DNA of 64,000 nucleotides from Methylobacillus rhizosphaerae (lineage in GTDB: Bacteria; Pseudomonadota; Gammaproteobacteria; Burkholderiales; Methylophilaceae), in contig NZ_FZOA01000001.1 of assembly GCF_900187985.1 (NCBI RefSeq), positions 124,001 to 188,000 on the forward strand, written 5' to 3'. This document shows positions 26,248 through 38,296 of this stretch, piece after piece (positions within the stretch are counted from its first letter, which is position 1; every line of letters begins with the position of its first letter). The position numbers were made by a program, and so were the translations under genes. The notes under the pieces were generated by a model. The model did not search any database and was not told the origin of the DNA. It saw only the letters and a program-made list of their open reading frames with translations.

Positions 26248-27330
26248 TTAGTTGTCTTCGCCTAAAGTCGCCAGCAGATCTGCCTGATGTTCTGCTGCGA
26301 GTACACCGATCAACTCATCCATATCACCTTCCGTGATGGCGTCAATTTTATACAGGGTGAGGTTGATGCGATGGTCAGTGATACGTCCTTGTGGATAATT
26401 GTAGGTACGTATGCGCTCACTTCGGTCGCCGGAACCGATCAGGCTGCGACGTTCACTGGCGATCTTGCTCTGCTGCTCATCTACCTGCTTGGCCTTGATG
26501 CGGGCGGCGAGCACTTGCATGGCTTGTGCCTTGTTTGAGTGCTGGCTGCGGCCGTCCTGGCATTCCACGACGATGCCGGTGGGAAAGTGAGTGATACGCA
26601 CGGCGGAATCGGTCTTGTTGATGTGCTGTCCGCCTGCGCCAGAAGCACGGAAGGTATCAATGCGGATATCCGCAGGGTTGATGGAGATATCCGAGACCTC
26701 ATCCACCTCGGGTAATACGGCGACAGTACAGGCAGAAGTATGGATGCGGCCCTGGGTTTCGGTTTCCGGTACACGCTGCACGCGATGACCGCCGGATTCG
26801 AACTTGAGTTTGGAGTAGGCGCCAAAGCCCTCGATCTTGGCAATGATTTCCTTGTAGCCACCCACTTCTGATTCACTGGCAGAGACAATCTCGACTTTCC
26901 AGCGCTGGCGCTCGGCATAGCGAGAGTACATGCGGAACAGGTCGCCTGCGAACAGCGCGGATTCGTCGCCGCCAGTACCGGCACGGATTTCCAGGAAGAT
27001 GTTGCGCTCGTCGTTGGGATCCTTGGGCAGCAATAATTTCTGCAGTTCCGCTGCAATGTCTTCCAGCTTCTGCTTGCTGGTCTCGATTTCCTCCTGCGCA
27101 AACTCTTTCATCTCGGGATCTGCCAGCATGGCCTGGGCATCCCGGATATCACTTTCTGTTTGCTCATAAGCGCGGAATTGCTCCGCGATGGGCGTGATTT
27201 CTGCATGTTCGCGCGTGATTTTGCGATAGTTGTCCATATCGCTGGTTGCATCTTCGCTCGACAGCAGGCGATTGAGTTCATCCAGGCGCTCGCTCAGGGT
27301 GGCGAGCTTTTTAATCATTGAAGGTTTCAT
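26248..27330 (-). CDS. prfA: Peptide chain release factor 1
   Basis: RF1 (360 aa) ends translation at UAA and UAG. The GGQ motif is at 233-235 ([18 protein letters not shown]) and the codon-reading PxT tripeptide is PET at 188-190 in [15 protein letters not shown]. The N-terminus [19 protein letters not shown] matches the family. It is 35 bases downstream of hemA; hemA-prfA-prmC is a widely conserved order. Confidence 0.98.
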
Positions 27331-27365
27331 TGCTTGAAAAGTGAAAAGCTGGAATATGGGTTAAT

Positions 27366-28610
27366 TTAATGATGAATCTGGTAAAGCTGGCGCAGCATGG
27401 CTTCAATCTGGTCGCGATTTTCGCCTTCGGCGCTATTGAGAACGTGACTCGGGCCGTGCAGTAGCTTGTTGGTCAGAGCATTGCTTAGTGCTTCCAGCAC
27501 CTGGACTGGATCATCCCCTCGGGCAAGTAGTTTTTGCGCTTTCTCCAGTTCATTGATACGGTATTGCTCGGCCTGTTCGCGCAGGGCGCGGATGGTGGGT
27601 ACCGCACTACGCGTTTTTAGCCAATGCATGAAATTTTCCACGCGCGTGTCGATGATGGCCTCGGCTTCTGCTGCGGCTTCCTGACGGTTTTCCATGCCTT
27701 CTTGCACTACTTGTGCCAGATCATCCACGGTGTAAAGGAATACATCATCCAACTCTCCTGCTTCGGGCTCGATGTCACGTGGCACGGCCAGATCCACCAT
27801 GAACATGGGTTTGTGCTTGCGGCTGCGGATTGCGCGCTCCACCATGCCCAGGCCGACGATAGGCAGTTGGCTGGCAGTGGAAGTAATCACAATATCGAAT
27901 TCCGCCAGGCGGTCAGGCAGGTCGGCCAACAGCATGCTCTGGCCATTGATGCTGGCGGCCAGCTCCTGGCCGCGTTCCAGTGTGCGGTTGGCAATGGTCA
28001 GGGACAATGGGCGGTGGGCAGCAAAATGTTCGGCACAAAGTTCTATCATTTCCCCGGCGCCAATGAAAAGTACATGTTGCTGGGAAATATCTCCAAAAAT
28101 GCGTTGTGCCAGCCTGGTAGCCGCTGATGCGAGGGATACGGAATTGGCGCCGATATTGGTATTGGTACGAACTTCCTTGGCAACCGAGAACGTGCGCTGG
28201 AACAGCTTGTGCAGCAGAGTGCCCAGCGTGCCGGCATTCTCTGCAATGCGCACTGCCTGTTTCATCTGACCCAGGATTTGCGCTTCGCCCAGCACCATGG
28301 AGTCCAGTCCTGAGGCAACGCGGAAAGCGTGCTTGACGGCATCCTGCTGGGGCAGGGTGTACATATAGGGTTCTATCGCCTGAGGCTGCAGCTTGTGGTA
28401 GCTCGCCAGCCACTCCAGGGCTTTCTGCGGGTTGTCGGTATTGCAGTAAAGTTCGGTGCGATTGCAGGTGGACAGGATAGCAGCTTCGCGGATGCCATGA
28501 GAATTGAGGTCGCGCAAGGCCGATCCGAGGCGCTCGTTCTGGAAGGCGACATTCTCACGTATGGAAACTGGTGCGGTCGTGTGGTTAACGCCCACTGTAA
28601 ATAAATGCAT
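27366..28610 (-). CDS. hemA: Glutamyl-tRNA reductase
   Basis: HemA (414 aa) reduces Glu-tRNA(Glu) to glutamate-1-semialdehyde, the first committed step of tetrapyrrole synthesis by the C5 route. The catalytic cysteine is C49 in [12 protein letters not shown], and the NADPH domain has [17 protein letters not shown]. The frame is open 16 codons further, but [19 protein letters not shown] is the conserved start, with AGGAAA about ten bases ahead. A perfect palindrome overlaps the likely -35 element (see 28718-28737). hemB lies on the other strand about 6 kb away. Confidence 0.97.
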
Positions 28611-28909
28611 CCTGCAATTTTCCTGTATCGCGGCAACTTGAGCAACAATTTCAAGCAATTAAGCCCTGAGTAATTGTGCGCGGCAGGCCGCTATGATACT
28701 CCGATTTTGGCTGATTGAACTAACCAGTTGGTTAGTTGGCGAATTGTTTTATTGGTTCCACAGCATATTCAAGGTTGCCAATCAGCCTGTTCTCCTAGTA
28801 TAAACATGGTTGCAGCATGGATTTTACGCAGCAGAGTGCCGATGCCGAGTGTAGCGGCGCATTTTCGGTTAAAATACTTATTTTTACGCTATAAACGACT
28901 TCGAATATC
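28611..28909. other. Intergenic region between divergent hemA and rpe
   Basis: No gene is seen in these 299 bases. For hemA, a minus-strand TATCAT (28698-28693) with a weak -35 (AGTTCA, 28721-28716) is the best promoter. For rpe, TATAAA just upstream of the gene (about 28891) is plausible but lacks a good -35. Another AT-rich TAGTATAA lies near 28796. The palindrome at 28718-28737 is the main structure. Confidence 0.6.
28718..28737. promoter_or_regulatory. Perfect operator-like palindrome overlapping the hemA promoter
   Basis: AACTAACCAGTTGGTTAGTT has perfect 8-base arms (AACTAACC / GGTTAGTT) around a 4-base centre. Its size and symmetry resemble TetR-family operators. It overlaps the predicted hemA -35. 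No regulator gene is adjacent. An RNA hairpin is the alternative, but no T run follows on either strand. Confidence 0.55.
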
Positions 28910-29608
28910 ATGGCCAAACCATTCAGAATTGCACCTAGTATCCTTTCCGCCAACTTTGCCAAGCTGGGCCAGGAAATCACCGATGTCATCACATCTGGCG
29001 CAGATATTGTCCACTTTGATGTGATGGACAACCATTATGTTCCCAACCTGACCATTGGGCCTCTGGTTTGCGAAGCAATCCGCCCTGTGACTGATGCCAT
29101 CATTGATGTGCACTTGATGGTCAAGCCTGTTGATCGCATCATTCCTGATTTTGCCAAGGCTGGTGCCAATATCATCACTTTCCACCCTGAGGCATCGGAT
29201 CATATTGACCGCAGCCTGTCCCTGATCCGTGATAACGGCTGTAAATCCGGCTTGGTGTTCAACCCTGCAACCCCGTTGTCTTATCTTGATTACGTAATGG
29301 ATAAAGTGGACATGGTGTTGTTGATGTCCGTGAACCCTGGTTTCGGTGGACAGAAGTTCATTCCAGGCACACTGGACAAGCTGCGTGAAGCCCGTGCCCG
29401 TATCGATGCCTACACTGAGAAGACTGGCCGTGAAATCTGGCTGGAAATCGACGGTGGCGTAAATCCTGCCAATATTGCCGATATTGCCCGTGCAGGTGCT
29501 GACACTTTCGTGGCTGGCTCTGCGGTATTCGGTGCTGGCAAGGACACTGACCCTAACCGTTACAACACCGTGATCAGCACATTGCGTGCTGAATTGGCAA
29601 AAGTATAA
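28910..29608 (+). CDS. rpe: Ribulose-phosphate 3-epimerase
   Basis: Rpe (232 aa) interconverts ribulose- and xylulose-5-phosphate. The TIM-barrel metal ligands are visible: H35 and D37 in IVHFDVMD, the histidine in DVHLMV, and the aspartate in [19 protein letters not shown] is the phosphate-binding loop. Codon choice looks biased toward highly expressed genes. In a ribulose-monophosphate methylotroph this enzyme would regenerate the formaldehyde acceptor, but no hps/phi genes are here to prove that. In several other betaproteobacteria gph separates rpe from trpE; here a trp leader follows directly. Confidence 0.97.
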
Positions 29609-29609
29609 G
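29582..29609 (+). promoter_or_regulatory. Likely trp operon promoter inside the end of rpe
   Basis: TTGCGT (29582-29587), a 16-base spacer and TATAAG (29604-29609) form a reasonable sigma-70 promoter. Transcription would start near 29616, about 12 bases before the leader peptide ATG. Confidence 0.55.
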
Positions 29610-29627
29610 TAGCAAAGTAGTGAGCAT

Positions 29628-29678
29628 ATGAAACCCCAAATCCTGAATAATCGCGCTAGTTGGCGATGGTGGCGCTGA
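29628..29678 (+). CDS. trpL: trp operon leader peptide
   Basis: A 16-codon frame between rpe and trpE reads MKPQILNNRASWRWWR then TGA. Three of its last five codons are TGG (12, 14, 15), far above chance for Trp. This is the expected design of a ribosome-mediated attenuator: low charged tRNA(Trp) stalls the ribosome at the end of the leader. The Trp-codon segment 29669-29675 (GTGGCGC) pairs perfectly with 29714-29720 (GCGCCAC), and 29639-29647 pairs with 29739-29747 just before the trpE ribosome site. A classical GC-rich terminator with a T run is not obvious, so the exact mechanism is open. The leader ribosome site is weak (GTGAG). Confidence 0.8.
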   Translation: MKPQILNNRASWRWWR

Positions 29679-29758
29679 AATAGTCAAGCTTTATGCCTGC
29701 GGCAGGGTCGTGGGCGCCACTTTGAATAATCAACCTTTTTCAGGATTCGGGAGTTTTT
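29679..29758 (+). promoter_or_regulatory. trp leader region with alternative pairings
   Basis: Contains GCGCCAC (29714-29720), complementary to the Trp-codon segment of trpL, a five-T run (29736-29740), and TTCAGGATT (29739-29747), complementary over 9 bases to 29639-29647 in the leader. The trpE ribosome site GGGAG lies at 29749-29753, right after this last segment, so leader folding could block trpE translation as well as transcription. Confidence 0.55.
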
Positions 29759-31249
29759 ATGCTGCAAACCATCAGTCAACAGGATTTTGACGCTCTGGCA
29801 GGCCAGGGCTATAACCGCATTCCATTGGTTGTCGAGACATTTGCTGATCTCGATACGCCATTGTCGCTTTATCTCAAATTGGCTAATCAGCCATTTTCCT
29901 ATCTGCTTGAGTCCGTACAAGGCGGCGAGCGTTTTGGTCGCTATTCCATTATCGGGCTGCCTGCCCATACCCGCATTGAAGCACGAGGGGCTGTTATCCA
30001 GGTTCTGGCGCATGGGCAGGTGGTCGAAGAAACCAGTGCCGTCAATCCGCTGGATTTTATCCAGTCATATCAGGCCCGGTTCCGTATCCCTCCGTATCAG
30101 GGATTGCCGCGGTTTACCGGCGGGCTGGCAGGGTACTTCGGTTACGACACCATACGCTATATTGAGCGACGCCTGGCAGGTAACAGCAAGCCGGATGAGC
30201 TGGGTGTGCCGGATATTCTCCTGATGGTGTCGGAAGAGCTGGCTGTGGTGGATAACCTGTCTGGCAAGCTCTATTTCATTGTCTATGCCGATCCTGCCTT
30301 GCCAGATGCATATCAGCAGAGCATCCAGCGCCTGCACGCGCTGGTCCAGCGTCTGCGTCAGCCCGTTGCGATCCCGCATGTGGCTGCGACTACCGCGACA
30401 GAAACACACTCCGAGTTCGGTGAGGCAGCTTTCAAGGATGCAGTTGCCAAGTCAAAGCGCTATATTTTTGATGGCGACATCATGCAGGTAGTGCTCTCGC
30501 AGCGCATGGCGAAGCCATTTTCTGAAGACCCTCTGTCTTTGTATCGTGCCCTGCGCAGCCTTAACCCTTCGCCTTATATGTTTTATTACGATATGGGCGA
30601 TCATCATGTGGTGGGAGCATCGCCGGAGATTCTGGTACGTCTTGAGGATGATATCGTCACTTCACGACCGATTGCCGGTACGCGTCCGCGTGGCAAGACG
30701 CGCGAAGAGGATCTGGCTCTTGCGGAGGAACTGCTGGCTGATCCCAAGGAAATTGCCGAGCATGTGCAGTTGATGGATCTGGGACGTAATGATGTAGGGC
30801 GTGTCGCGCAAGTAGGCAGTGTGCACGTGACAGACAACATGATGATAGAGCGCTATTCTCATGTGATGCATATTGTTTCCAATGTGGAAGGCAAGTTGAA
30901 ACCCGGCTTGCATGCCATTGATGTACTCAAGGCTGCGTTTCCTGCAGGTACGCTCAGTGGCGCACCCAAGGTGCGAGCCATGGAAATCATTGACGAATTG
31001 GAGCCCAGCAAACGCGGTATCTATGGCGGTGCTGTAGGGTATCTCGGTTTCAACGGGGACATGGATCTGGCAATTGCCATTCGCACTGGCGTTATCAAGG
31101 ATGGCATGCTGTATTCCCAGGCGGGTGCTGGCATTGTGGCGGATTCCGTACCTGAAAGTGAATGGACGGAAACCCAGAACAAGGCCAGGGCAGTGCTGCG
31201 CGCTGCCGAGATTGTCCAGGCAGGGTTGGACAACAAGTTGTCGTCATGA
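29759..31249 (+). CDS. trpE: Anthranilate synthase component I
   Basis: TrpE (496 aa) converts chorismate and ammonia to anthranilate. The tryptophan feedback-inhibition motif LLES is intact at 49-52, and the chorismate-binding domain carries [25 protein letters not shown] and the C-terminal [15 protein letters not shown]. Length is normal. It is preceded by the leader peptide and followed after 85 bases by trpG. Confidence 0.98.
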
Positions 31250-31334
31250 CCGTGATGAATTCGCGGCCCGTTTCACGCCAGACCAACAGGGATAAGTGAA
31301 GCGCGGCTGACTCAAGCGATGAAGGAACCATATT

Positions 31335-31901
31335 ATGCTGTTAATGCTGGATAACTACGATTCGTTTACCTACAACCTCGTGCAATATCTTGGTGAGCTT
31401 GGACAGGATGTGCAGGTATATCGCAACGATGAAATCGACCTTGCGCGCGTAGCCGAGCTTAATCCCCGGCACATTGTCATTTCCCCTGGGCCATGCACAC
31501 CGAGCGAGGCTGGTATTTCCGTGCCACTGATCCATGAGTTTGCCGGTAAGATTCCCATGCTGGGCGTGTGCCTGGGTCACCAGAGTATCGGCCAGGCCTT
31601 TGGCGGCAGAATTGTGCATGCCAAGCAACTCATGCATGGCAAGACCTCGGAAATTCATCATGCAGATGCCGGTGTATTCAAGGGGCTACCCAATCCATAC
31701 ACGGCAACGCGCTACCACTCTTTGGTCATTGAGCGTGAAACTATCCCGGATTGCCTGGAAATCACCGCCTGGACCGAAGATGGCGAAATCATGGGTGTGC
31801 GGCACAAAACCCTGCCGATCGAGGGCGTGCAGTTCCACCCTGAGTCTATCCTGACCCAGTATGGCCATGAGTTGCTGAATAATTTCCTGAAAGCCTATTG
31901 A
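31335..31901 (+). CDS. trpG: Anthranilate synthase glutamine amidotransferase component II
   Basis: TrpG (188 aa) supplies ammonia from glutamine to TrpE. The class I amidotransferase triad is present: C79 in [11 protein letters not shown]168 and E170 in VQFHPES. In many bacteria this subunit also serves p-aminobenzoate synthase; no pabA is in the window. Its stop overlaps the trpD ATG (TGATG). Confidence 0.97.
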
Positions 31902-32926
31902 TGAGTATTACTGCCAAAGCTGCTCTGCAGAAACTGATCGACCATGTGGATTTCAGCCATGAGGAAATGCTGGATGTGATGCAGCAGATCATGGGCGGGA
32001 CATTCACTCCCATCCAGATTGCAGGCTTCCTTGCCGGCTTGCGCGTCAAGGGTGAAACCGTCGTCGAGATTGCCGCTGCCGCACAGGTGATGCGTGAGCT
32101 GTCGAGCAAGGTAGAGATTGCCGATACCCGACACCTGATCGATACCTGTGGCACTGGTGGTGCGCCCAACAAAGCATTCAATGTGTCGACGGCTTCTGCT
32201 TTTGTCGCTGCCGGTGCTGGTGCGAGAATTGCCAAGCATGGCGGCAGGGCGGCATCTTCCAAGAGTGGCTCTGCTGATGTGCTGGAGGCGCTGGGCGTAA
32301 ATATCGGCCTGACGCCGGAACAAGTAGCACGCTGCGTGGATGAGGCCGGTATCGGTTTCATGTTTGCGCCCAATCATCATGCGGCGATGAAACATGCTGC
32401 GCCTGTGCGTCGTGAGCTGGGCGTACGCACCATGTTCAACCTGCTGGGCCCGATGACCAACCCGGCCGGGGCAAAAAGGCAGGTCATGGGTGTATTTCAC
32501 CGCGACCTGGTCAGCCTGCTGGCGCATACCCTGAAACAGCTGGGCAGCGAGCACGTGATGGTGGTGCACAGCGCGGACGAAATGGATGAAATCTCCTTTG
32601 CCGCAGATACCTATGTTGCCGAACTCAAGGATGGGGAAGTGCGTGAATACACGCTGAACCCGACCCAGTTCGGCATGCCTTTGCATGATATCAACAGCAT
32701 CCATGTGGAAAGTGCGCAGCACTCCAGCGAAATTATCCTGGGCGTCCTGCGTGGCGAAACCGGTCCGGCGCGGGATATTGTATTGCTGAACGCCGGGGCA
32801 GCAATTTACGTTGCTGGCCTGGCGCAGGATTTACAGGCAGGCATTGCCCAGGCAGCATCTTCCCTGGATTCCGGCGCGGCATTGGCTAAGCTGGAGCAAT
32901 TGAAAGCACTGAGCCAGGCATCATGA
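31901..32926 (+). CDS. trpD: Anthranilate phosphoribosyltransferase
   Basis: TrpD (341 aa) transfers phosphoribose from PRPP to anthranilate. The family's pyrophosphate loop is seen in LIDTCGTGGAPNKAFNVST, then KHGGRAASSKSGSADVLEALG. ATG at 31901 overlaps the trpG stop; a TTG one codon earlier (31898) is possible but less likely. Its own stop overlaps the next start (CATGATG at 32923-32928). Confidence 0.97.
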   Translation: MSITAKAALQKLIDHVDFSHEEMLDVMQQIMGGTFTPIQIAGFLAGLRVKGETVVEIAAAAQVMRELSSKVEIADTRHLIDTCGTGGAPNKAFNVSTASAFVAAGAGARIAKHGGRAASSKSGSADVLEALGVNIGLTPEQVARCVDEAGIGFMFAPNHHAAMKHAAPVRRELGVRTMFNLLGPMTNPAGAKRQVMGVFHRDLVSLLAHTLKQLGSEHVMVVHSADEMDEISFAADTYVAELKDGEVREYTLNPTQFGMPLHDINSIHVESAQHSSEIILGVLRGETGPARDIVLLNAGAAIYVAGLAQDLQAGIAQAASSLDSGAALAKLEQLKALSQAS

Positions 32927-33384
32927 TGCGCCTGCTGCTGGTGGTCGTCATTGCGGTCACTTACACGCTCTACCATTTTGGCCATGAGGACAGTCCAGCC
33001 TCCTTGCCTGTCTCGGAACAGGCCTTGGTTTCTGCGCCGGCAGTTGCGGAAGCCAACCAGCGTATTGAAGAAGCTTTCCGTCAACACGAACATGATGTGG
33101 AGGTGCAGTCTCACGGTGTGGTAACTAAGGTGCTGCCGGATGATAATGATGGTACACGTCACCAGCGTTTTATCCTGACCCTGGATAATGGCATGACGGC
33201 GCTTGTTGCGCACAATATCGATCTCGCCCCCCGGCTTGAAGGGCTCAAGACAGGAGACGAGGTGGAGTTCAAGGGTGTTTATGAATGGAATGCCAAAGGC
33301 GGTGTCATACACTGGACCCATCATGACCCGCGCGGTCGCCATGCAGCAGGCTGGTTGCGCTATCACGGCAAACTCTATCAGTAA
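32923..33384 (+). CDS. DUF3465 family protein inside the trp operon
   Basis: A 153-residue protein with one N-terminal hydrophobic segment (about 3-19) that could be a signal peptide or anchor, a variable linker, and a C-terminal about 100-residue domain with SHGVVTKVLPDDNDGTRHQR, VAHNIDLAPRLEGLKTGDEV and VIHWTHHDPRGRHAAGWLRY. This matches DUF3465, a small predicted periplasmic OB-like domain often said to bind nucleic acid; function is unproven. It is translationally coupled to trpD and lies 24 bases before trpC. Nothing in it suggests a step in tryptophan synthesis. Confidence 0.82.
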   Translation: MMRLLLVVVIAVTYTLYHFGHEDSPASLPVSEQALVSAPAVAEANQRIEEAFRQHEHDVEVQSHGVVTKVLPDDNDGTRHQRFILTLDNGMTALVAHNIDLAPRLEGLKTGDEVEFKGVYEWNAKGGVIHWTHHDPRGRHAAGWLRYHGKLYQ

Positions 33385-33408
33385 TCAGAACGAAAGCGAT
33401 ACAGGGCA

Positions 33409-35851
<2,443 letters not shown>

Positions 35852-35876
35852 ATTGCCCGATCCTTTAACAATATCA

Positions 35877-35908
35877 AAAGTGCTGTCAGTGCATACTGCC
35901 AGCACTTT
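35877..35908 (-). terminator. Intrinsic terminator of mrcA
   Basis: A 9-bp outer stem (AAAGTGCTG / CAGCACTTT), one mismatch and a 4-bp inner stem (CAGT / ACTG) close a GCAT loop. On the minus strand it is followed by TTTTGATATT, 16 bases beyond the mrcA stop. Confidence 0.75.
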
Positions 35909-35923
35909 GTTTAAAACATATGT

Positions 35924-38296
35924 TTAAAACAATTGGTCGGGCCCTTGTGGCGCACTATCCTTCTTTTCCATGGGGACAGTTGCGCCATGTCCGGGAATCG
36001 GGAAGCCAGGAATGATGGAGAATGCGGGCTCTTCCGGTTCTGGCGGTGGAAATTCCTGATAGAAGTATTCCACAACGCCGCTATCATCCGTGCTGCGCAT
36101 TCCTGTTTCTGGATTGATGCGGATGGCACTGATTCCGTCAGGCATCGTTGGCGTGACATTCGGCGTGCCTTTCAGCGCAGAGCTCATGTAATCAACCCAG
36201 ATGGGCAGCGCAGCTTTGCCGCCGGTTTCCAGGCTGCCTAGCGATTTAGGTTTGTCGTAACCCATCCAGGCAATTGCTACTTGCTTGGGATTGTAACCAG
36301 CAAACCAGGCATCGATCTGGTTGTTGGTGGTCCCTGTTTTGCCTGCCAGGTCGGAGCGTCCCAGCGCGCGAGCCTTGCTTGCGGTACCAATTCGCACCAC
36401 ATCACGCAGCATGGAATTCATGATGAAGGCATTGCGACCATCAATGACACGCGGCGCGCCTTGCCCTGCCAATAGCGGTTTGGATTGCTCCACGACCTTG
36501 CCGCGCGGGTCTACAACCTTATCGATGATGTATGGTTTGACCCTATAGCCGCCGTTGGCGAATACCGCATATGCTCCTGCCATCTGCCATGCGGTGACTG
36601 AACCTGAGCCCAGTGCCATGGCAAGGTAAGGAGGGTGATCCTTGGGAGAGAAGCCAAAGCGGGTGATATAGTCCTGGGCGTAATTGACGCCAATACCTTC
36701 GAGAATACGGATGGACACCATATTCTTGGACTTGGTCAAGGCAGTGCGCACGCGCATTGGGCCATCATATTTCCTGTCGTAATTCTTGGGTTGCCAGGAT
36801 GAACCACTCCCGGTTTCACGTGCGGAAATTGAAATGGGTTCATCCTCGATCATGGTGGCAGGGGTGAAGCCTTTCTCCAGCGAAGCAGAGTAAATGAAGG
36901 GCTTGAAGCTGGAGCCGGGTTGACGCCAGGCCTGGGTGACATGGTTGAACTTGTTGCGGTTGAAGTCAAAACCGCCAACCAATGCACGTACCGCTCCATT
37001 TTCCGTGTCCAGGGAAACCAGTGCCGCTTCTGCCTGAGGCAGCTGCACAATATGCCAGGCATCTTTCTGACGCATGATGCGGATCACGGCACCCGGTTTG
37101 ATGGTGCGCTTGGCAGCATCCTTGTCATTCAGTTGTTTTTTGACAAAAGCCAGCCCATCGCCGCTGATTTCGATATTGTTGCCATCCTTGGAATATACGC
37201 TGACAGCCTTGGGTGAGGCATCCGTGACCACGGCGGGCACCATGCCCTGGAACGTTTCGAGGGCATCCAGTGCATTGTCCAGCCAGGTGCCATTGCCTGT
37301 GGGGTTTGCGCCTGGGGTCACGGTCTTTTCCGGGCCGCGATAGCCGTGGCGGCGGTCATAATCAATAATGCCCTGCAGGATAGCCCGGTTGGCCGCTTCC
37401 TGGTCGCTTTTGCGGATAGTGGTATAAATCTTCAATCCGCTGCTGTAGATATCATTTTTGTAACGCTCATACATGGCCTGGCGCACGATTTCAGCCACAT
37501 AATCTGCTGAAAGCTCACGTATCTTGCGGGACTGGCGCAAATGATGAGGCTCGTTATAGGCGGCATCATATTGTTTCTGGTCAATGAAATGCAGTTCTTT
37601 CATCCGGCGCAAGACATAATGTTGTCGCGCTTCGGATCGCTTGATATTGGCAAACGGGTTGTAGCGTGAAGGGGCTTTGGGCAAGCCTGCCAGCATGGCT
37701 GCCTCGGCAATGCTCAGTTCATTCAGGGGCTTGCCGTAATATACCTGGGATGCCGCAGCAAAGCCGTAGGAGCGGTGACCGAGGTAAATCTGGTTGATAT
37801 ACAGTTCCAGGATTTGATCCTTGGTCAGGCTGTGCTCGATCTTGATCGAAAGCAGGGCCTCACTCAGTTTGCGGGTGGCAGTTTTTTCGCGGGAAAGGAA
37901 AAAGTTACGCGCTACCTGCATGGTGATGGTGCTGGCGCCTTCCTTGAAACTGCCGGAAATGACATTGGATACGGCTGCCCGCAGGATGCCCAGTGTATCA
38001 ATACCGCCGTGCTGGTAGAAGCGTTCATCTTCTGCAGCCAGAATAGCCTGTTTGAGGATGGTCGGGGTGTCGTTGATGCTGATAAAGGCACGGCGCTCTT
38101 CGCCAAACTCGCCGATCAGGTAGCCATCGGCGGAATAAACGCGCATCGGCACCTTGGGTTTGTAATCGGTGAGTGCATCCAGGGAAGGGAGCTCAGGGTA
38201 GATCAATGTGGCAGCCAGTGCTACCAGCGCAGTTGCCACCAGACCGAGGATAATGCCGGTCAGGATCAGGAACTGCCACCATTTTTTAGGGAGCAT
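35924..38296 (-). CDS. mrcA: Class A penicillin-binding protein 1A
   Basis: A 790-residue bifunctional peptidoglycan synthase. After a membrane anchor (about 8-30) comes the glycosyltransferase domain with catalytic E89 in AAEDERFYQHGG, GASTITMQVARNFFLS and the downstream QILELYINQIYLG. An OB-like insert (about 320-425) follows, then the transpeptidase domain with SSFK at 462-465, SKN in LTKSKNMVS and KTGT in LAGKTGTTNNQID. A polar, proline- and glutamate-rich tail ends the protein. It is divergent from aroK, with the pil genes that often lie between absent. Confidence 0.97.
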   Translation of the reverse strand: MLPKKWWQFLILTGIILGLVATALVALAATLIYPELPSLDALTDYKPKVPMRVYSADGYLIGEFGEERRAFISINDTPTILKQAILAAEDERFYQHGGIDTLGILRAAVSNVISGSFKEGASTITMQVARNFFLSREKTATRKLSEALLSIKIEHSLTKDQILELYINQIYLGHRSYGFAAASQVYYGKPLNELSIAEAAMLAGLPKAPSRYNPFANIKRSEARQHYVLRRMKELHFIDQKQYDAAYNEPHHLRQSRKIRELSADYVAEIVRQAMYERYKNDIYSSGLKIYTTIRKSDQEAANRAILQGIIDYDRRHGYRGPEKTVTPGANPTGNGTWLDNALDALETFQGMVPAVVTDASPKAVSVYSKDGNNIEISGDGLAFVKKQLNDKDAAKRTIKPGAVIRIMRQKDAWHIVQLPQAEAALVSLDTENGAVRALVGGFDFNRNKFNHVTQAWRQPGSSFKPFIYSASLEKGFTPATMIEDEPISISARETGSGSSWQPKNYDRKYDGPMRVRTALTKSKNMVSIRILEGIGVNYAQDYITRFGFSPKDHPPYLAMALGSGSVTAWQMAGAYAVFANGGYRVKPYIIDKVVDPRGKVVEQSKPLLAGQGAPRVIDGRNAFIMNSMLRDVVRIGTASKARALGRSDLAGKTGTTNNQIDAWFAGYNPKQVAIAWMGYDKPKSLGSLETGGKAALPIWVDYMSSALKGTPNVTPTMPDGISAIRINPETGMRSTDDSGVVEYFYQEFPPPEPEEPAFSIIPGFPIPGHGATVPMEKKDSAPQGPDQLF

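Follow-up and report, generated by a model that had tools for sequence, protein, structure and literature searches.

The trpE gene of Methylobacillus rhizosphaerae is preceded by a short leader frame, trpL, which carries clustered Trp codons and whose first codons are complementary to the initiation region of trpE. As judged from sequence, it is well supported that this complementarity recurs, in different letters, across genera, families, and orders. The recurrence of the leader together with the pairing suggests that Trp supply is sensed by ribosomes on the leader and controls the translation of trpE, not its transcription. We consider it likely that the element is a ribosome-mediated translational attenuator of trpE, in which ribosomes stalled at Trp codons would keep the start of the leader covered, perhaps via a queue.

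A Trp-rich leader frame between rpe and trpE

The window, by which we mean the whole stretch of 64,000 nucleotides analyzed here, comes from a 2.37-Mb assembly of 17 contigs. In TrpE comparisons, its closest named relatives were three Methylobacillus species (86 to 90% identity); a set of 80 named loci served for naming only. The original prediction placed a 16-codon Trp-rich frame between rpe and trpE, and such a frame is present: trpL occupies positions 29628 to 29678 of the positive strand, encodes MKPQILNNRASWRWWR, and ends with the stop codon TGA. The upstream gene, which we take to be rpe (28910 to 29608, positive strand), ends 19 bases before trpL; trpE, the controlled gene in the proposed model, extends from 29759 to 31249 on the same strand. 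The Trp codons of trpL are the TGG triplets at 29661 to 29663, 29667 to 29669, and 29670 to 29672, and a CGA codon for arginine (29664 to 29666) separates the first from the second. At least three clustered Trp residues were found in 8 of the 1,210 ATG-started window ORFs of 8 to 40 amino acids; thus, a Trp cluster by itself is rare but not unique. A scan of 28600 to 30000 listed no promoter-like site on the positive strand between 28911 and trpL. The trp genes and rpe may belong to one common transcript.

Predicted pairing of the leader start with the trpE initiation region

Folding of the leader RNA, proposed earlier as a check, was run on positions 29616 to 29770 and yielded a structure of −58.8 kcal/mol (z = −4.4), which none of 200 shuffles equaled. 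Its main feature was a long helix between two segments of the positive strand. Segment A, the anti-Shine-Dalgarno arm (29625 to 29647), covers the first trpL codons including the start codon and is supported by the fold and the swap tests described below. Segment D (29739 to 29761) is the trpE initiation region, with GGGAG at 29749 to 29753 and the ATG at 29759 to 29761. The A:D helix comprises 21 bp with small interruptions at −23.1 kcal/mol (z = −3.8; 2 of 1,000 shuffles were equally good) and is predicted to span the trpE Shine-Dalgarno sequence, the trpE ATG, and most of the trpL ATG. The 9-base pairing AATCCTGAA noted previously (29639 to 29647 with 29739 to 29747) is exact and forms the core of this longer helix. 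The earlier observation of a Trp leader with its pairings ahead of trpE is thus confirmed. Folds and swap tests together predict that the trpE Shine-Dalgarno sequence is sequestered by pairing, as is characteristic of a translational attenuator. An Rfam 15 scan of window positions 27000 to 36000, with E values of up to 5, returned three matches, none of them in the leader.

Conservation of the leader in relatives

For the family, 140 of 150 searched genomes had a strong TrpE match, and 90 trpE upstream regions were sampled from these, each from a different genome. A leader was scored when two Trp codons no more than four codons apart were located close to the end of a short frame. Such leaders were found in 79 of the 90 regions, whereas shuffled sequences averaged 2.4 and never exceeded 5, and a stricter W-R-(x)-W rule gave 76 regions against 0.15. 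Relatives whose leader frame has no Trp codons, the outcome that would have spoken against the original prediction, were therefore not the rule. Most of the 21 genera of the family read W-R-W-W; in g19 (Methylophilus) and in some leaders of g7 and g22 (Methylotenera), the motif is W-R-x-(x)-W-R or a similar one. Outside the clustered Trp codons, the peptide varies freely. Between 6 and 19 codons (most commonly 11) precede the first Trp codon of the leaders.

The leader extends beyond the family. Among the 141 matching genomes of other families of the order, 60 were sampled, with at least one from each family with a match; one region (L217) was excluded for insufficient length. The remaining 59 contained 27 leaders (shuffle mean, 1.35). 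A sample of 40 out of 93 genomes from other orders of the class contained 11 (shuffle mean, 1.65). Thus, by our rule, approximately half to three quarters of the regions outside the family have no leader.

Seven of the 90 family regions (L065, L088, L040, L052, L041, L071, and L077) carried no multi-Trp leader. Among these are all five examined regions of genera g13 (L040 and L052) and g15 (L041, L071, and L077), whose examined genomes are small (1.2 to 1.4 Mb). One-Trp frames occurred in two family regions, L008 and L065. The leader of L008 (genus g21), MLKPINFKFYDGRWRY, has a single Trp codon and Gly and Arg at the remaining usual Trp positions, yet its A:D pairing is strong (−24.8 kcal/mol). 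By eye, some regions of the order and class sets also carry one Trp only. In two regions from other orders, L244 and L249, the Trp-bearing frame seems by eye to run without a stop toward the trpE start, which would suggest coupling rather than a closed leader.

The leaders are also rich in CGA. This codon accounts for 84 of the 168 Arg codons in the 83 leaders, whereas five neighboring genes of the window use it for 5 of 78; in 54 of the 83 leaders, it stands immediately after the first Trp codon. These counts are not independent since the leaders are related by descent. CGA is a slowly read codon. Placed beside Trp codons, it may lengthen the pause, or its letters may serve the pairing.

Covariation of the two arms

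Leaders were first collected with an automatic picking rule, which found one in 82 of the 90 family regions. After the pairings had been seen, the starts were moved by hand in L032, L050, L062, and L091, the ORF of L051 was replaced, and the one-Trp leader of L008 was added, yielding 83 leaders from 21 genera; such changes can favor pairing. In this set, the mean A:D energy was −17.9 kcal/mol with the leader's own partner and −10.7 kcal/mol with partners from other genera. With one genome per genus, the swap test gave z values of −7.8 to −9.0 (range over the first 8 of 20 draws), and none of 2,000 permutations was equally good. Individually, 53 of the 83 leaders reached the 5% level or better against shuffles and 30 missed it; in 52, the own partner outperformed at least 95% of the foreign ones.

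Because six leaders had been adjusted by hand, the test was repeated on 79 leaders from 20 genera, all picked automatically and left untouched, with the segment length fixed at 60 bases. Own partners averaged −17.4 kcal/mol versus −11.4 kcal/mol for foreign partners, with z values of −5.3 to −7.6 in 20 draws and 0 of 2,000 permutations equally good in each; 37 of the 79 leaders outperformed 95% of their foreign partners. The effect was smaller than that with the adjusted leaders but still strong. The same test on 27 leaders from 21 other families of the order gave z values of −6.4 to −7.6 (0 of 5,000 permutations in each of four draws), and 11 leaders from other orders gave a z value of −5.9 (0 of 5,000).

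Thirteen segment pairs were compared with shuffles over the 21 genera. A:D deviated furthest, with a mean z of −2.1 and values below −1.5 in 13 genera; the runner-up was B:D (mean z, −0.96; 7 of 21 genera below −1.5), which may be an addition in some genera. Segments B and C are the two arms of the Trp-codon helix discussed below. The pairings A:B, A:C, and C:D were not favored. Some genera, for example, g8, g14, and g24, look unpaired in A:D. Across the comparative set of leaders, the paired bases on the trpE side peaked at −17 to −5 relative to trpE. Our computations thus found the leader, the A:D complementarity, its covariation, and its focus on the Shine-Dalgarno sequence.

One member of the order set, L184, has a helix with 31 pairs and an energy of −57.9 kcal/mol. 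By eye, both arms in L184 and L197 are composed of a repeated CACAGAG-like motif, and those in L242, from another order, of a CGCAAAG-like one; these arms look as if they had been supplied by mobile or repeated intergenic sequence.

Alignment-based evidence was more limited. The A:D helix changes register between genera, and RNAalifold applied to a plain alignment of 13 sequences recovered no A:D helix. In six register-compatible sequences, a 13-bp core had 93.5% paired cells and two double changes, a result that column shuffles matched in 63 of 500 trials. With ungapped 10-mers, at least 9 of 10 pairs formed in 16 of 21 own combinations compared with 43% of the swapped ones, which is a moderate separation only. 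Part of the A:D complementarity is generic because D carries a purine-rich Shine-Dalgarno sequence; the energy-based swap tests allow for this part because swapped partners are reoptimized too. The helix keeps its partners, not its letters, so ordinary alignment and Rfam both miss the element.

Terminators and the Trp-codon helix

The textbook example of a leader peptide that controls transcription is the trp attenuator. In a classical arrangement of this kind, stalling at Trp codons would choose between an antiterminator and a Rho-independent terminator, and the A:D pairing would be either incidental or the terminator stem. The window and the 79 family regions have the clustered-Trp leader ORF before trpE that such an attenuator requires, and five T's follow the Shine-Dalgarno sequence of the window trpE. 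The Rho-independent terminator, however, is missing from the window: in agreement with the original prediction, the scan of 28600 to 30000 revealed no terminator-like site between trpL and trpE, and none of six Methylobacillus leaders passed a hairpin-plus-T rule. We therefore rejected a classical terminator for Methylobacillus. Terminator-like hairpins were present in 15 of the 83 family leaders (4.7 expected), whereas only 9 of the 83 had at least five T's among the last eight bases before the trpE ATG, so the A:D stem is not a terminator in general. Termination is therefore not the output that the leaders have in common. Moreover, the classical leader of Escherichia coli, treated in the same way as the window leader, showed no A:D-type pairing (z = 0.1). 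On balance, classical attenuation is an improbable account of the element.

One genus stands apart in this respect. Seven of nine g20 leaders (L009, L010, L011, L016, L018, L019, and L021) have a terminator-like hairpin followed by T-rich sequence between the leader stop and trpE, and these account for part of the hairpin excess. Genus g20 may combine termination with A:D pairing and thus have both outputs.

A second pairing had been noticed earlier, between the Trp codons and a downstream segment: GTGGCGC at 29669 to 29675 (segment B, the 5′ arm) with 29714 to 29720 (segment C, the 3′ arm), both on the positive strand. This Trp-codon helix is exact in the window, but its comparative support turned out to be much weaker than that of A:D. 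By energy, the mean z of B:C was −0.40, with 2 of 21 genera below −1.5, and the longest exact B:C complement gave a z of +0.73 (t = 2.1). Given these weak scores, pairing of the Trp codons with the downstream segment was rejected as the main switch; it is possible as a helper only.

Proposed mechanism

The earlier idea that the leader acts at trpE translation is well supported by comparison: in different genera, families, and orders, the start of the leader is complementary to the region where trpE is initiated. In the OFF state of the translational attenuator that we propose, A would pair with the trpE Shine-Dalgarno sequence and start codon, preventing initiation at trpE. The start codon of trpL also lies in A, so trpE could not be sequestered while a ribosome initiates at trpL, nor could trpL be initiated while trpE is sequestered. 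When Trp is plentiful, a ribosome would cross the short frame and depart, and A:D would re-form. When Trp is short, ribosomes would stall at the UGG codons and A would remain covered. In leaders whose A reaches almost to the first UGG, the stalled ribosome would cover it directly; in those with A at a greater distance upstream, such as that of Methylobacillus, a second ribosome queued behind the first at the start of trpL would do so. With A covered, D would be free and trpE would be translated. The stalling, the response to Trp, and the queue are features that we infer, and the queue is an assumption added to the model.

In folds with the ribosome-covered bases masked, the outcome of which is nearly forced by the mask itself, the Shine-Dalgarno region had a mean openness over genera of 0.24 in the free RNA. 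This value was 0.35 when one ribosome occupied the first Trp codon, 0.49 when another was placed behind it, and 0.27 when the ribosome stood at the stop codon. Subject to the same constraint, openness in the window stayed at 0.21 with one stalled ribosome and rose from 0.21 to 0.47 with a queue. One ribosome at the first Trp codon gave gains above 0.2 in only 17 of 83 leaders, a queue in 49, and a ribosome placed at the stop in 2; in genus g7, there was no gain on average. When eleven codons precede the first Trp, a ribosome positioned at the trpL AUG trails one whose A site holds the first UGG by 30 bases, approximately the distance between stacked ribosomes. Genus g3 has seven such codons, and there the modeled stalled ribosome would cover A itself.

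These distances raise a more specific scheme, which we offer tentatively and hold to be rather less than an even bet: a queue-gated switch, spread over Burkholderiales-like families and further orders of the class, with no conserved helix sequence. In Methylobacillus and other genera with 11 or 12 codons before the first Trp, the stalled ribosome would miss most of A, and the next ribosome, stacked at the trpL start, would cover it, so that trpE would sense a two-ribosome stack. Initiation at trpL would exclude initiation at trpE, and vice versa. A helix of this sort, lacking a conserved sequence, would be missed by sequence-based RNA searches.

Two other readings share the A:D pairing with the translational attenuator. 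According to the first, trpL would be a general sensor of translation, with any ribosome on it opening trpE and the Trp codons not being sensed at all. Initiation alone could open D because the trpL start lies within A; toiL is reported to work in this way with several antibiotics (PMC12121999), and the one-Trp frames in L008, L065, and some order- and class-set regions (the latter judged by eye) would fit as well. The retention of clustered Trp codons in the family far above the shuffled level, while the remaining peptide varies freely, makes a sensor blind to Trp very improbable. According to the second, a Rho-dependent action of the kind also raised in the original prediction, leader translation would expose or hide a rut site, and the pairing with D would only silence trpE translation for Rho. 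A second, Rho-dependent layer has been reported for toiL-topAI (PMC12121999), and a uORF-dependent, presumably Rho-mediated case has been modeled in Sinorhizobium meliloti (PMC12218461). Rho alone, however, does not explain why A covaries with the Shine-Dalgarno sequence, and we regard Rho-dependent attenuation as unlikely to be the explanation. It may be an addition to the translational attenuator rather than a replacement: by analogy with the report on toiL-topAI (PMC12121999), Rho could add polarity once trpE is left untranslated.

Comparison with known systems

In ermB and ermC, a ribosome stalled on the leader by a drug frees the Shine-Dalgarno sequence of the next gene, and several hairpins are rearranged. 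The element proposed here would likewise use a ribosome stalled on a leader frame to free the next Shine-Dalgarno sequence, but none of the 13 segment pairs examined yielded a competing helix. Both erm leaders are named as translational attenuators in the toiL-topAI report (PMC12121999).

As far as that report describes it, the toiL-topAI uORF of E. coli most resembles the trp leader (PMC12121999). Its sequence pairs directly with the downstream Shine-Dalgarno sequence, and it is proposed, with support from in-cell SHAPE, that the latter becomes free when a ribosome is held at the beginning of the uORF. In both systems, a short upstream frame would thus pair with the next Shine-Dalgarno sequence, the reduction of pairing by ribosomes resting on SHAPE there and being our supposition here. 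In toiL-topAI, the signals are ribosome-targeting antibiotics and the target is a toxin-antitoxin operon, whereas here clustered Trp codons precede trpE.

The LEU element found before leuA in Actinobacteria also has a leader rich in codons for the product of the pathway and a base stem that holds the Shine-Dalgarno sequence (PMC1262725). As described there, however, the run of Leu codons itself pairs with the Shine-Dalgarno sequence, and a pseudoknot is proposed; the authors report that the effects of codon mutations were at odds with classical attenuation and favor a protein ligand (PMC1262725). In the window, it is the first codons (29625 to 29647) that pair; the Trp codons, which start at 29661, lie apart, and the regulatory codon run does not pair with the Shine-Dalgarno sequence. 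The trpL leaders of E. coli and S. meliloti (for the latter, PMC7298713) also have clustered Trp codons directly before trpE but act through transcription termination, whereas the window leader has no terminator-like site.

A screen for premature terminators in many bacteria is, by the design it describes, blind to such a leader (PMC2965389). A study of leader-gene reinitiation (PMC4833913) cites Lopatovskaya 2010 for a mechanism relying on overlap with the ribosome-binding site, and a related idea may therefore already be in print. Our literature search returned no account of this mechanism for trpE in these bacteria; with Vitreschak 2004 and Lopatovskaya 2010 outside the comparison, the novelty is provisional. 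If the translational attenuator is real, one and the same Trp-codon sensor serves two different outputs, and the leaders would offer a natural setting in which to test control by queued ribosomes.

Other amino acid biosynthesis genes in Methylobacillus

Similar leaders were sought within 330 bases upstream of two further genes in Methylobacillus. No frame of 6 to 40 amino acids with at least three Trp residues was found for trpF (4 of 8 loci), and none of that size with at least three His residues was found for hisG (5 of 7 loci). In the trpF locus L285, the match begins only at family position 18, which means that the start taken for this locus is off by approximately 50 bases. In the draft genome G062, the trpF match consisted of two adjoining pieces (L287 and L288), which reflects either a frameshift or an assembly fault.
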